NCBI GenBank assembly: GCA_016931455.1
Contig: JAFGES010000024.1
Span: forward strand, 1 to 64,000
Length of the DNA stretch: 64,000 nt
DNA from: Desulfobacterales bacterium
GTDB lineage: Bacteria; Desulfobacterota; Desulfobacteria; Desulfobacterales; JAHDSC01
Direction of reading: 5' to 3'
Program-made: the position numbers and the translations under genes
Shown here: one piece after another, positions 38,046 through 43,996 of the stretch
How positions within the stretch are numbered: position 1 is the stretch's first letter
Layout of the letters: the number at the start of each line of letters is the position of its first letter
The notes under the pieces: generated by a model
What the model saw: only the letters and a program-made list of their open reading frames with translations
Told to the model about the DNA's origin: nothing
Database searches by the model: none

Positions 38046-38816
38046 ATGATACGATTTTTTGAATTTACAGGGAAAAAGTTTATCTCCATTGTTGAAGAAT
38101 TTGGGAAAGTTATGCTCCTATTTCTATCAGCATTCTTATGGATGTTCCGCAAACCGTTTCGTTTTAGAGTTATTATTAAACAAATGGAATTTGTGGGTGC
38201 CGATTCCGTTAGCGTTATTTTAATAACCGGGGCATTTACAGGTATGGTTCTGGCCCTTCAAACCTACTATGGTTTTAGAATGTTCGGGGGTGAAAGCCTA
38301 GTAGGTGCGACGGTGACTTTATCCATGACAAGGGAAATCGGGCCTGTATTTACAGCCTTAATGGTAACGGGACGTGCAGGCTCTGCCATGGCGGCTGAAA
38401 TTGGTACAATGAGAGTTACCGAACAAATTGATGCCCTATATACGATGTCGGTCAGCCCAATTCAGTATTTAATTATGCCACGTATTCTTGCCGCAGCACT
38501 TATGCTTCCGATTTTAACAATCATATCGGATTTCATTGGTATTGTAGGGGGGTATTTGGTCGGTGTAGAATTTATGAAAATAAATTCGGGGATATTTATG
38601 TCCAAAATTATAGAATTTGTAGATCTTGCCGACATTTTCAACGGGTTGATCAAATCCGCCTGCTTCGGATTAATACTTTCTTTGATCGGGTGTTACAAAG
38701 GATTTTATACCAAAGGCGGTGCCGCAGGCGTTGGAAAGGCAACGACGCAATCCGTCGTCTATTCTTCAATAACGATTTTGATAAGTGATTACTTTCTTAC
38801 AGCGGCAATGTTTTAA
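38046..38816 (+). CDS. mlaE: Lipid ABC transporter permease MlaE
   Basis: 256 residues with about five hydrophobic helices. The MlaE signatures ITGAFTGMVLALQTYYG, LTREIGP-like MTREIGPVFTALMVTGRAGSA and ALYTMSVSPIQYLIMPR are intact. It is the inner-membrane permease for phospholipid transport across the envelope. Its stop overlaps the mlaF start. Confidence 0.95.
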   Translation: MIRFFEFTGKKFISIVEEFGKVMLLFLSAFLWMFRKPFRFRVIIKQMEFVGADSVSVILITGAFTGMVLALQTYYGFRMFGGESLVGATVTLSMTREIGPVFTALMVTGRAGSAMAAEIGTMRVTEQIDALYTMSVSPIQYLIMPRILAAALMLPILTIISDFIGIVGGYLVGVEFMKINSGIFMSKIIEFVDLADIFNGLIKSACFGLILSLIGCYKGFYTKGGAAGVGKATTQSVVYSSITILISDYFLTAAMF

Positions 38817-39544
38817 TGATTAAACTGGTGAAGGTTTGCAAATCCTTTAATGGACAAAAGGTCCTGGACAATCTTGATCTTGAGATCGAAGCGCAAAAAA
38901 TTACCGTAATTATAGGTCAAAGCGGCGGAGGTAAAAGTGTCCTATTAAAACATATAATTGGTCTTATAAAACCGGATTCAGGGCAAATTTTTGTTGATGG
39001 GACAGATATTGTCAAACTCAATGATAGAATGTTAAATGAAGTCCGAAAAAAATTCAGTATGCTTTTCCAGGATGCAGCCCTTTTTGATTCTATGACTGTG
39101 GGAGAAAATGTTGCTTTTCCCCTGAAAGAACATACGCGTCTATCCAAAAAAGAGATCGAAGAAATCGTTGAAGCAAAATTGCTCCAAGTGGGATTAACAA
39201 ATGTGACCCATAAAATGCCCTCCGAGCTTTCCGGTGGTATGCGCAAGCGAGTGGGTCTTGCAAGAGCAATCGTGCTTAATCCCCAAATTATACTGTTTGA
39301 TGAACCCACAACAGGTCTAGACCCTTTGATGAGCGATGCAATTGACCAACTTATATTAAAGACTCAATATGATACAAGGTCGACATGTGTTATTATCAGC
39401 CATGATATTGCATCGGCTTTCAAAATTGCGCATAATATAGCCATGTTATATCATGGAAAAATTATTCAATCGGGAACACCCGCTGAATTAAGGTCTTCAA
39501 ATATCTCTATTATTAAAAAGTTTATTGAGGGGACATCTGCATAA
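38816..39544 (+). CDS. mlaF: Lipid ABC transporter ATPase MlaF
   Basis: 242 residues with all ABC motifs: Walker A GQSGGGKSVLLKH, Q-loop FQDAALFDSMTV, signature ELSGGMRKRVGLARA, Walker B ILFDEPTTGLDP and H-loop ISHD. It powers MlaE. Its ATG overlaps the mlaE stop. Confidence 0.96.
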   Translation: MIKLVKVCKSFNGQKVLDNLDLEIEAQKITVIIGQSGGGKSVLLKHIIGLIKPDSGQIFVDGTDIVKLNDRMLNEVRKKFSMLFQDAALFDSMTVGENVAFPLKEHTRLSKKEIEEIVEAKLLQVGLTNVTHKMPSELSGGMRKRVGLARAIVLNPQIILFDEPTTGLDPLMSDAIDQLILKTQYDTRSTCVIISHDIASAFKIAHNIAMLYHGKIIQSGTPAELRSSNISIIKKFIEGTSA

Positions 39545-39642
39545 ATTATTCGTAAAAAATTAAATTGTTTTTGTTTTATTCATCAATAAGATTTTAGGTA
39601 ATGAAGATAAAAATTATAATCGAATCAACAGGTTTTTAAAGT

Positions 39643-41139
39643 ATGGCAAAATTAAGTGTAGAGGCGAAGGTAGGCTTTTTTGTTATAATTGGAATTATTA
39701 TTTTATCCTATATGTCCATGAAGTTAGGTAAGCTTAGTTTTAAAAGAGACTCAGGCTATATTCTCAAGGTGTTTTTTGACTCTGCATCGGGTCTCGCGGA
39801 GGATGTCCCGGTTGAAATTGCGGGTGTAGAGGTCGGCAGGGTTCAAACAATTTCTCTCATGAACGGAAAAGCACTTGTAATCCTAAAAATTAACTCTGAT
39901 ACAAAAATTTCAAAAAATGTCAAAGCGATCATTAGAACTAAGGGTATTTTAGGAGACAAGTATATCGAACTCGTTCAGGGAACCGAGCAAGCACCGTTTA
40001 TGAAGCCGGGAGACCAAATCTTGAATGCATCTCCGGCAACCGACATAGATACATTGATGAAGGTTCTTGAAGAAGTCGCAATAAATATAAACAAACTGAC
40101 CGGTTCTTTTGCAAATGTTATGGGCGGTGAAGAGGGGGAAGCTTCTCTCAGAACAATCTTTGAAAATGTGAAAGAGATGGTTGAAACGCTGAACTTAACC
40201 GTTCAGAAAAATAATACAAATGTGACCCAAATTATTTCAAATCTATCTGATTTTTCAAAAAAATTAAAGAATATCAGCGATACTCACAGTGATGATATCC
40301 GGAGCATTATCACAAATATTCACGGGGCATCAGAAGAAATTGAACAACTTATCTCCGGAATTAATAAAATCACTACAAAGCTGAATCAGGGAAAAGGAAG
40401 TTTAGGCAAACTGATCAATGAGGAAGAAACGGTTAATAATTTAAATGACATGCTTGCTGATCTTAAAAATATTACGGAAAAGATTAATAGTGGTAAAGGA
40501 ACGATCGGAAAGCTAATTAAGGAAGATGAAACTGCGGATAGAATCAATACGACATTGTCCGGCATAAACGATTATATCCGGAAACAAGAGACATTCCGCA
40601 CCTATCTCAATTATAGAGGCGAATATCTTTTTAACAGCGGGGATGTAAAATCGTATCTTTCGCTACGCATCCAACCAAAAGAAGATAAATACTATCTTTT
40701 CAACGTGGTAGATGATCCACGGGGTAAAGATTCTATAACAGATATCACCCGAACGATTAATGATTCAACAACCACGGAACGAATTGTTGAAACTGAAAGA
40801 GATGGGCTTAAATTTTCAGCACAGATCGCTAAACGTTATTACGATATTGGTTTTCGAGGGGGGCTCTTCGAATCAACAGGGGGTATCGGGATCGATTACT
40901 ATTTCTTCGATGACCATTTGATGCTTTCGATGGAAGCATTTGATTTTGATCCTGACCGAAATTTTCATTTAAAATTCAAAGCGGATTATACCCCATTTAA
41001 TTATATCTATATAACTTCCGGATTAGACGATTTTATCAGTGATGAGGGAAACGAATCTTTTTTTATAGGAGCTGGAATTAATTTTTCGGATGAAGATATC
41101 AAAACCATTCTATCAAACATTCCTCTTCCAACCAATTAA
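39643..41139 (+). CDS. mlaD: MCE protein MlaD, long form with beta-rich C-terminal half
   Basis: 498 residues, whereas E. coli MlaD has about 180. It has a membrane anchor (about 9-27), one MCE domain (about 38-115) and a long helical stretch (about 145-325) that includes the repeated G-K-G-x-x-G-K-L-I motif twice. The last 170 residues are made of alternating hydrophobic and polar strands rich in Tyr and Phe (YLNYRGEYLF, GGIGIDYYFFDDHLMLSMEA, FKADYTPFNYIYITSGL). That half looks like an outer-membrane beta-barrel. If so, one protein would reach from inner to outer membrane. The barrel idea is an inference; the final residue is not aromatic as in most barrels. Confidence 0.85.
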   Translation: MAKLSVEAKVGFFVIIGIIILSYMSMKLGKLSFKRDSGYILKVFFDSASGLAEDVPVEIAGVEVGRVQTISLMNGKALVILKINSDTKISKNVKAIIRTKGILGDKYIELVQGTEQAPFMKPGDQILNASPATDIDTLMKVLEEVAININKLTGSFANVMGGEEGEASLRTIFENVKEMVETLNLTVQKNNTNVTQIISNLSDFSKKLKNISDTHSDDIRSIITNIHGASEEIEQLISGINKITTKLNQGKGSLGKLINEEETVNNLNDMLADLKNITEKINSGKGTIGKLIKEDETADRINTTLSGINDYIRKQETFRTYLNYRGEYLFNSGDVKSYLSLRIQPKEDKYYLFNVVDDPRGKDSITDITRTINDSTTTERIVETERDGLKFSAQIAKRYYDIGFRGGLFESTGGIGIDYYFFDDHLMLSMEAFDFDPDRNFHLKFKADYTPFNYIYITSGLDDFISDEGNESFFIGAGINFSDEDIKTILSNIPLPTN

Positions 41140-41189
41140 CAAATTAATATATTTACTAAAATATCATATTTTAATTATTTTTTCGAACG

Positions 41190-42611
41190 ATGCCTTCAAA
41201 GACCTCAGAAGAGAAAGCCAAACCATTTCGTTTGGTCAAATATTTTACTTTTACAAGTCTTATTGTAATTTTTATCGGCACACTTGTCCTTACTGCACTC
41301 AATACGCATTGGGCAAGGTCTATACTACTAAAAAAAAGCGAAGATTATGCTCTCGTACTTATTGAAAACCTTAACCATCAAGTTTTTTTACAATTTGTAA
41401 TCCCCGTGGCCCTGAAATACGGCAAGATTCAACTGAGAAACAAAGAACAATTCGAACGTATGGATAAAGTTGTCAAGAGCACACTTCACAGCTTTGCAGT
41501 TGATATGGTGAATATATATGACTTGGATAACACTGTTTCCTACAGTTATGATCACGAGATGATCGGAAAACAGAATATTGGTGGCACAGGCTATCAGTAT
41601 GCTATCCAAGGCAAATCGACTTCAAAACTTGCCCAAAGAGGTAATTTTTGGGAAATTCTGCTTGGATTTCCAAAAGAAAGCAAAATTATCACCTCAGCTC
41701 CAATTCGGGCGGAAAAATCTCTTTCCAGAATATCAGGACCAGTGCTGGGGGTTGTAGAAATTGTCCAGGAGTTGTCAGACGATTATAAAACAATTTTCAA
41801 ATTCCAAATTCTTGTCATTACAACCTATACGCTGGTTATGAGCTTTATCTTTTTGGTATTGCTTTTTGTTGTAAAAAGGGGAGAAAGTATAATTGAAAAA
41901 CGCGCCCTTGAGAGACTTAAACTTAAGGAGCAATTAAGCCGTACCAAACATTTATCTTCTCTAGGTGAAATGGTTGCCGCCGTTTCACATGAAATCCGCA
42001 ATCCATTAGGCATTATAAGGAGTTCAGCCGAACTCTTAAAAAAGAAAATGGCCGGAGTTGACGCTTCAAATCCAGTTCCGGATATTATCGTTCAAGAATC
42101 AAATCGTCTGAATAATATTATCACGGATTTTTTAAATTTTGCCAGACCCAGGAATCCAAATTTAAGCCTCTGCCGAATTGAAGAAATAATTGAAAAAAAT
42201 CTGACATTTCTTGCACCACATATTGAATCGCAAAAATATTTAATCGATAAGCGATATAATGATAAACTTCCTGAAATAATTGCCGATGCCGACATGCTCT
42301 ATCAAGCATTCCTTAATCTTTTGCTCAATGCGATGCAAGCAATGCCGAAGGGGGGTATAATCTCCATTGAAATTATCTCCATTGAAAATCGCTTGAAAAT
42401 ATTTTTCAAAGACGAAGGCGAAGGTGTTTCAGAAGATATTCTGGAAAAAATTTGGGATCCTTTTTTTACCACTAAAGAAAAAGGAACGGGACTCGGTTTA
42501 GGTATTGTAAAAAATATTGTTGAATCCCATGGAGGAAGCATTCAGATTAGCAATCGCCCCATACAGGGGACACAGGTTAAGGTCGAATTGCCTGTTAACC
42601 GGGAAAAATAA
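41190..42611 (+). CDS. Membrane sensor histidine kinase (AtoS/ZraS-like)
   Basis: 473 residues. Two membrane helices (about 20-42 and 212-237) enclose a periplasmic sensor domain of about 170 residues. A kinase core follows: phosphoacceptor box VSHEIRNPLGIIRSSAE, LNLLLNAMQAMP (N box) and GTGLGLGIVKNIVESHGG. No PAS or classical HAMP is obvious. The gene starts 50 bases after mlaD and ends two bases before its response regulator, so it probably belongs to the mla operon. A 15-base tandem duplication inside it is listed separately. Confidence 0.9.
   Translation: MPSKTSEEKAKPFRLVKYFTFTSLIVIFIGTLVLTALNTHWARSILLKKSEDYALVLIENLNHQVFLQFVIPVALKYGKIQLRNKEQFERMDKVVKSTLHSFAVDMVNIYDLDNTVSYSYDHEMIGKQNIGGTGYQYAIQGKSTSKLAQRGNFWEILLGFPKESKIITSAPIRAEKSLSRISGPVLGVVEIVQELSDDYKTIFKFQILVITTYTLVMSFIFLVLLFVVKRGESIIEKRALERLKLKEQLSRTKHLSSLGEMVAAVSHEIRNPLGIIRSSAELLKKKMAGVDASNPVPDIIVQESNRLNNIITDFLNFARPRNPNLSLCRIEEIIEKNLTFLAPHIESQKYLIDKRYNDKLPEIIADADMLYQAFLNLLLNAMQAMPKGGIISIEIISIENRLKIFFKDEGEGVSEDILEKIWDPFFTTKEKGTGLGLGIVKNIVESHGGSIQISNRPIQGTQVKVELPVNREK
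42360..42389 (+). repeat. 15-bp in-frame tandem duplication inside the histidine kinase
   Basis: ATCTCCATTGAAATT is followed directly by ATCTCCATTGAAAAT. It repeats five codons (I-S-I-E-x) in the ATPase domain strand before the G1 box. The near identity of the copies suggests a recent slippage event. Confidence 0.75.
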
Positions 42612-42613
42612 TT

Positions 42614-43996
42614 ATGGAAACAGTCCTGATTGTAGATGATGAAAAAAATTATCCACTGATCTTAAGTGCGGTTTTGGAAGAGGAAGGATTTGAAACTTTA
42701 ACTGCCAATAGCGGCCGGGAAGCACTGGATGTAATTAACAACTCTGATGTCGACTTGGTTCTAACAGATATGAAAATGCCCTCTATGGATGGTATTGAGC
42801 TGTTAAATAGGATTAAAGTGAAAGACCCCGACTTGCCGGTGATCATGATGACTGCTTATGGTACGGTAGAGAAGGCAGTGGAAGCTATGCAGAAAGGTGC
42901 TTTTAATTACATACTTAAACCATTCGACAATGAACGACTGGTCATCTATGTGAATAAAGCGATCGCAATGTACCGGGTTATCAAAGAAAATCGGCATCTG
43001 CGTAGTACCGTCGAATCCCGTTACAGTTTCGGCAATATTATCGGCAAAAGTAAAGGAATGCAAAATGTTTTCGAAATTATCCGTAAAGTTGCGCCATCTA
43101 ATGCAACGGTACTATTAGAAGGGGAAAGCGGCACAGGCAAGGAACTCGTAGCAAAATCAATTCATTTCAACAGTCCACGACATGACAAACCTTTTATAGT
43201 GGTTAATTGTTCCGCACTTGCTGAGAACCTTCTTGAAAGCGAACTCTTTGGGCATGAAAAGGGAGCTTTTACCGGCGCCGTGGCAATGAAGAAAGGACGA
43301 TTTGAACTAGCCGATGGAGGCACTTTATTTCTTGATGAAATTGCCGAACTTGCTCCTAATCTCCAGGTAAAACTATTGCGTGTGCTCCAAGAAAAAATTT
43401 TCGAACGTGTTGGAGGCGTCAAACAAATTTCTGTGAATATCCGACTTATTGCCGCCACAAATAAAAAATTGAAAGAAGAGATCAAAGCTGAAAGATTCCG
43501 AGAAGACCTATACTTCCGCCTAAACGTAGTTCGTATCGTTTTGCCGCCTTTAAGGGAACGCTCGGAGGATATCCGTCTCCTGACAGATCACTTTATAAAA
43601 AAATATGCAAATGAACGTAAATCTGATGTTCCAATAATCGGAATCGACCAAGAAGCTGAACGGCTTTTTTATGCTTATAGCTGGCCTGGAAATGTGCGTG
43701 AACTTGAGAATGTGATTGAAAGGGCTATGATCCTTTGTCCCGATAACTTGATAAAAATATCCGATTTGCCCAAAGATTTCAAGGACAATATCGATAATAC
43801 ATACAATCTTGAAGGGATACCTGTAAATGCAAAATTATATAAAACGCTTACAATGATTGAAAAGAAAATGATCGAACGTGCATTGCATATAACAAACAAT
43901 GTTCAGTCACATGCTGCGGAATTATTAGGCATTGGCAAAAGCGGACTGAATCAGAAAATAAAAAAATATAAATTAGGAATGGATTCTAAAAATTGA
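42614..43996 (+). CDS. Sigma-54-dependent response regulator
   Basis: 460 residues: receiver (phosphoacceptor in LVLTDMKMPSMDG, Lys in ILKPF), AAA+ domain with Walker A GESGTGKE, intact GAFTGA loop (FGHEKGAFTGAV), Walker B LFLDEIAEL and sensor NVRELENVIERA, and a C-terminal Fis-type helix-turn-helix (AAELLGIGKSGLNQKIKK). It is the partner of the kinase two bases upstream. Its placement after mlaEFD suggests it answers envelope or lipid stress; its targets are unknown. Confidence 0.93.
   Translation: METVLIVDDEKNYPLILSAVLEEEGFETLTANSGREALDVINNSDVDLVLTDMKMPSMDGIELLNRIKVKDPDLPVIMMTAYGTVEKAVEAMQKGAFNYILKPFDNERLVIYVNKAIAMYRVIKENRHLRSTVESRYSFGNIIGKSKGMQNVFEIIRKVAPSNATVLLEGESGTGKELVAKSIHFNSPRHDKPFIVVNCSALAENLLESELFGHEKGAFTGAVAMKKGRFELADGGTLFLDEIAELAPNLQVKLLRVLQEKIFERVGGVKQISVNIRLIAATNKKLKEEIKAERFREDLYFRLNVVRIVLPPLRERSEDIRLLTDHFIKKYANERKSDVPIIGIDQEAERLFYAYSWPGNVRELENVIERAMILCPDNLIKISDLPKDFKDNIDNTYNLEGIPVNAKLYKTLTMIEKKMIERALHITNNVQSHAAELLGIGKSGLNQKIKKYKLGMDSKN

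Follow-up and report, generated by a model that had tools for sequence, protein, structure and literature searches.

The 64,000-nucleotide stretch of DNA analysed here (the window) carries on its forward strand a run of five genes at 38046-43996, scanned against Pfam, in which a long mlaD is the third gene after mlaE and mlaF. The mlaE gene (38046..38816) encodes a permease of 256 aa (PF02405, E 1.5e-83; TIGR00056 over its cut-off), and mlaF (38816..39544) encodes an ABC ATPase of 242 aa (PF00005, E 9.8e-35) whose best NCBIfam match is MlaF, at a score under that model's cut-off. The mlaD frame (39643..41139) opens with an ATG that agrees with the start in most aligned homologues and encodes 498 residues; the first-pass annotation had put it at about 2.7 times the length of E. 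coli MlaD, and the ratio is indeed 2.72 (183 aa in E. coli; PMC10665443). Against TIGR04430, the model for short MlaD of the E. coli type, the protein scores 106.3 bits, under the cut-off of 135, and we therefore treat it as a relative of MlaD rather than as the short equivalog. A histidine kinase gene (41190..42611; PF00512, PF02518) and an NtrC-type response regulator gene (42614..43996; PF00072, PF00158) lie downstream. None of the five genes encodes a PF03886 outer-membrane lipoprotein partner, and mlaC is missing from the operon.

The anchor, MCE domain and helical stretch noticed at first pass are all found in the long MlaD. Residues 6-28 (39658..39726) form the inner-membrane anchor, a helix in the full-length model and an apolar stretch in the sequence, and residues 38-113 (39754..39981) form the MCE domain (PF02470, E 2.9e-18), with structures of E. 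coli MlaD matching the long protein within residues 1-141 at Z scores up to 19.2. The helical linker, 184 residues long, follows at residues 133-316 (40039..40590). As a whole, the full-length AlphaFold2 model is weak (pLDDT 56.4, pTM 0.41), with the linker under pLDDT 50; helices are modelled with low confidence across residues 135-313, giving the helical region of about 150 residues expected of barrel-type MlaD, and at pLDDT <50 the model does not fix how these helices are arranged. Comparing the linker with itself gave a score of 102 at an offset of 34 residues (next best offset 43), which corresponds to a 34-residue unit that occurs twice and has the motif GxGxxGKL, at approximately residues 247-280 and 281-314 (40381..40584). 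Among 36 alignment rows, linker lengths run from 101 to 219 residues with a mode of 185 (18 rows), and two relatives differ from the mode by exactly one repeat unit, locus L044 (219) being longer and locus L061 (151) shorter by 34. One unit more in the first of these relatives and one fewer in the second suggest a testable way in which the length of a bridge might be set. An alpha-helix rises 1.5 Å per residue, at which a 185-residue linker drawn as one continuous helix would measure about 280 Å, and the linker could plausibly span the periplasm.

The first-pass annotation had also proposed a beta-barrel at the C-terminus, and the structure predictions bear this out. Residues 316-498, folded alone with AlphaFold2 (34 alignment rows), give a beta-barrel at pLDDT 87.1 and pTM 0.76, with 12 DSSP strand segments and a final helix. 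The barrel domain itself takes up residues 317-482 (40591..41088), and the helix residues 483-491 (41089..41115), where D483, D485 and K487 are conserved. We read the 12 segments as ten membrane strands, a count that fits the V. parvula protein and remains unproven, and we likewise read the long polar hairpin at residues 362-385 of the model as lying on the side opposite both termini. Foldseek candidates were aligned with VIA-align, and the figures that follow come from the 50 matches listed. The best of these is the designed barrel TMB10 (Z 14.5, rmsd 2.6, 132 aligned), followed by Pla (Z 14.2, rmsd 3.1, 141 aligned), OpcA (Z 13.8, rmsd 2.5, 136 aligned) and a Legionella porin (Z 13.1, rmsd 2.8, 141 aligned). 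The top three are ten-stranded barrels, a number that TMB10 carries in its name. Soluble barrels match too, namely BFA1 at Z 12.8, no more than 1 below the third and fourth ranks and hence level with both, and Rv0813 at Z 11.2; by title they account for 7 of the 50, the other 43 including one unclear title and many near-identical porins. Foldseek alone gave no match reaching E 0.001 (best 3.6e-3), the sequence search for solved relatives of the barrel gave a single chance-like match (E 0.083), and a Pfam scan of the barrel alone found no family at E 0.1.

The composition of the domain was described at first pass as rich in Tyr, Phe and Gly, and this holds for the aromatic residues. Tyr, Phe and Trp make up 15.5% of residues 325-498 and 2.2% of the linker, so the aromatic enrichment is real, whereas Gly is barely higher (8.0% compared with 7.1%). 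The alternation of polar and apolar residues reported there is also present: over ten strands the mean difference between faces is 0.47, compared with 0.23 (sd 0.057) after shuffling within strands, and none of 5000 shuffles reaches 0.47. The exception is strand 349-358, in which alternation is absent (face difference 0.01). For this test and for the entropy test, strand limits were assigned manually using the models, leaving out two of the 12 segments; the entropy test also left out one strand with a face difference <=0.2 and used 30 alignment rows, the window being one of them. Mean entropy of the polar face is 1.18, as against 1.39, a difference in conservation that is not significant (p 0.14), and we dropped polar-face conservation as a proof that the apolar face points outward. 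In the same 30 rows, G476 is invariant, position 479 is always apolar and F481 is nearly invariant. These residues belong to the last strand (472-482; 41056..41088), which resembles an outer-membrane beta-signal. A strictly conserved QPKEDKYY motif at Q344-Y351 was considered and rejected: it is invariant but for one column in the first set of loci, where that very stretch served as a search pattern, and it varies in an independently found set, with readings such as QPKADK, QPTPDK and QSRQDY. The modelled C-terminal domain resembles outer-membrane barrels and would probably sit in the outer membrane.

Scanning named genomes yielded 39 related loci, several of which end at contig ends, under the titles Desulfobacteraceae, Desulfobacterales, Candidatus Desulfaltia, Deltaproteobacteria, Proteobacteria, Nitrospirae/Nitrospiraceae, Myxococcales and Polyangiaceae. 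The window and 36 of the loci were aligned in 37 rows, leaving out L056, L060 and L073 (two broken or N-containing frames and one short fragment), and a second alignment of 34 rows also left out the near-duplicates L039, L040 and L050. At 29 of 30 independently found places, window included, the MCE and barrel matches share a single open reading frame with 138-236 residues between the two profiles; at the thirtieth, the match begins at base 1 of its contig. An mlaE is present in 25 of the 39 loci and an mlaF in 27, a count that excludes two matches of 28-29% at L048. That locus has a barrel-type mlaD with kinase and regulator downstream, and in its upstream 6 kb there is no mlaE match and no mlaF match beyond those two. 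A histidine kinase match lies downstream in 19/39 loci and an NtrC-type regulator in 16/39, though adjacency is not constant; the pair may place barrel-type mlaEFD under envelope-responsive control. Seven loci with Myxococcales, Polyangiaceae or Deltaproteobacteria titles show neither mlaE nor mlaF even at E 0.01, within upstream DNA of 6 kb for L066, L069, L072 and L075 and of 0.6-1.7 kb for L065, L068 and L071. Ten neighbouring frames scanned at L065, L066 and L072 include rhomboid and helicase genes (L072) and beta-oxidation genes (L065), and six of the ten had no match at E 1e-5.

The genome as a whole holds four MCE proteins by PF02470 profile search, of which the barrel profile matches the window protein only, once. 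The first-pass annotation was right that no mlaC or mlaA lies near the long mlaD. The single MlaC match and the single MlaA match of the genome are both on another contig, C18, where mlaE, mlaF, an mlaD of 150 aa, mlaC and mlaA stand in consecutive order; the C18 mlaE was assigned by 50% identity to the window MlaE, and no separate mlaB-like frame was seen in the row. The further proposal that the long protein removes the need for MlaC thus fails in this genome, and we reject a replacement of MlaC by the bridge here because of this complete locus. A finding of this kind had been named as a refuter at first pass; it refutes replacement of the shuttle in this organism and does not refute that the long MlaD is a bridge. 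The C18 MlaF (L106:5944-7173) carries a fused GGDEF-like domain (PF00990, E 1.8e-19) whose signature by eye reads GLNKL in place of GGDEF, so that it is probably not a cyclase, and no such fusion appeared by title among the literature matches listed. The remaining two MCE proteins are one of 332 aa on contig C82, with mlaE-like and mlaF-like genes and a PF03886 lipoprotein, and one of 346 aa on contig C28, with an mlaE-like gene and a weakly mlaF-like gene (L108:6410-7120) that by eye seems to have no Walker A motif.

We then set the barrel domain against the shuttle components in 297 genomes sampled from the phylum; the domain is carried by 53, with one match each at E 1.8e-45 to 3.0e-87. MlaC is present in 13/53 barrel genomes and in 156/244 others (Fisher p 2e-7, a value that overstates the significance since related genomes, the 53 belonging to 20 families, are counted as independent), and MlaA in 13/53 and 139/244. 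Both proteins occur together in 11 barrel genomes, this one included, compared with 136 of the others, and 38 barrel genomes have neither. Bridge and shuttle thus coexist in more than rare cases, and the counts agree with the tendency, not a requirement, of genomes with barrel-type MlaD to lack MlaA and MlaC described by Grasekamp et al. 2023 (PMC10665443). In nine of the 11, the contig that carries mlaC or mlaA has a non-barrel mlaE close by; the other two are G099 and G072. In G099, an MlaD-like frame of 147 aa was seen by eye next to mlaC, not far from the end of the contig. G072 has a barrel MlaD 68% identical to ours, together with an mlaC that at 206 aa is of normal length and an MlaA match of lesser strength (E 1.2e-27); its one mlaE match besides the barrel-type gene has 30% identity, for which reason its shuttle system may be decaying. 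At G072 locus L139 (4180-6161), mlaC is followed by what looks by eye like an mlaA, and a transposase-like frame was also seen there by eye, near the contig end.

The descent of the two systems was followed through MlaE, in a tree of 22 barrel-type loci, 11 other Mla loci and eight further relatives. In ten of the 11 other loci, mlaC or mlaA lies on the contig of the mlaE, no more than a few kb away; the MlaC listed for G254 is on a different contig. FastTree parts the barrel-type MlaE from those of other Mla loci with support of 0.973 and 0.961, and IQ-TREE (SH-aLRT/UFBoot) gives 85.3/96 for the barrel group and 84.1/70 for the other, with the eight further relatives not forming one group. 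The trees lend moderate support to a separation of the two kinds of locus. Against ten barrel-type MlaE proteins, the window MlaE outscored the C18 MlaE in 10/10 cases, most narrowly for L074 (52% compared with 49% identity). Trees and scores together argue against a recent fusion of a barrel onto the local shuttle system.

From the domain order, the predicted barrel fold, the gene neighbourhood, the conservation and the lineage we consider it probable that this is a long barrel-bearing MlaD of the V. parvula kind, acting as a transenvelope lipid bridge. MlaE and MlaF would form an ATP-driven pump in the inner membrane, on which the MCE ring of six MlaD subunits, so numbered by analogy with solved MCE rings and anchored in the inner membrane, would be stacked. 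The linkers would then form a helical tunnel across the periplasm, and the ten-stranded barrels that end the MlaD chains would sit in the outer membrane and fix the mouth of the tunnel there. Phospholipids, the presumed cargo, could cross between the membranes without MlaC, perhaps in the retrograde direction. The bridge proposed at first pass accordingly keeps its barrel fold, linker, mlaE and mlaF neighbours and V. parvula precedent, and loses the replacement of MlaC. Against a bridge count the Foldseek search with no match at E 0.001, the soluble barrels among the structural matches, the low pLDDT of the linker, the presence of MlaC and MlaA in the genome, and four distant homologues (L066, L069, L072, L075) in which 6 kb of upstream DNA contains no mlaE or mlaF.

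Another way to view the barrel is as a soluble domain at the tip of the linker, lipocalin- or nitrobindin-like, which binds lipid or docks an outer-membrane partner and is not inserted. The matches to BFA1 and Rv0813 would suit such a domain, as would the lack of a significant difference in the entropy test. However, the two best matches listed are membrane barrels and exceed BFA1 by more than 1 in Z, 43 of the 50 listed are not soluble barrels by title (one unclear, many near-identical porins), the last strand is beta-signal-like, and the V. parvula barrel construct is recovered with the outer membrane on fractionation (PMC10665443), and we regard a soluble barrel as unlikely. It is also conceivable that an inserted barrel does no more than anchor the protein in the outer membrane, and that MlaC and MlaA from the other locus feed the long MlaD in one hybrid system. 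Both proteins are encoded in the genome, and G072 combines a barrel system, mlaC and an MlaA match with only the 30% second mlaE. Here, however, mlaC and mlaA belong to a complete locus with its own mlaE, mlaF and short mlaD, and 38 of the 53 barrel genomes have neither protein; we think this reading quite improbable. Returning to the transenvelope bridge, its presence beside a canonical shuttle makes either a division of labour or redundancy likely. That the two Mla routes, bridge and MlaC shuttle, are of separate descent and have different jobs is a tentative suggestion that we hold to be rather doubtful. If true, the bridge might carry, for example, bulk or opposite-direction flow, and one organism could separate both modes of intermembrane lipid transport.

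The closest known system is that of V. parvula, for which Grasekamp et al. 2023 (PMC10665443) put forward a transenvelope bridge made by a long MlaD of 419 aa with a ten-stranded C-terminal barrel, in an Mla system without MlaA and MlaC whose mutants show lipid-asymmetry phenotypes. The protein described here shares the architecture they describe, with anchor, MCE domain, long helical region and C-terminal barrel beside mlaE and mlaF. It differs in its 498 residues, in the further mla locus of canonical type that supplies mlaC and mlaA to the genome, so that the lack of both proteins associated with barrel-type MlaD is not seen in this genome, and in the NtrC-type two-component pair downstream. 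The main text of PMC10665443 makes no mention of Desulfobacter, Thermodesulfo, Nitrospir, Myxococc or coexistence; its species lists are in supplements, and this organism may well have relatives among the Proteobacteria covered there. Among the literature matches listed, none dealt by its title or the opening of its abstract with barrel-type MlaD in Desulfobacterota, which does not prove that there is no such paper. With the design of the bridge already published, the addition made here is a modest one, the coexistence of bridge and shuttle. The direction and cargo of each route are left open in the discussion of PMC10665443, and organisms with both routes would allow these to be asked.

The MlaFEDB-MlaC-MlaA system of E. 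coli draws its MlaE, MlaF and MCE domain from the families found here, whereas the E. coli MlaD is short and barrel-less and MlaC ferries the lipids, a type of system that this genome carries at its other locus. In having an MCE protein that would reach across the periplasm, the long MlaD resembles PqiABC, LetAB and Brucella Mpc. PqiABC and LetAB are needle or multi-ring MCE bridges, and Mpc is described as a bridge of this type (PMC12436622). These systems rely on more than one MCE ring or on a lipoprotein partner in the outer membrane, whereas here a single MCE domain is joined covalently to a barrel. Mycobacterial Mce1 likewise combines an MCE ring with a long helical needle, but its C-terminal barrel is reported to be built from one strand of each of six subunits (PMC10665443), whereas a complete barrel is predicted for every chain of the long MlaD.
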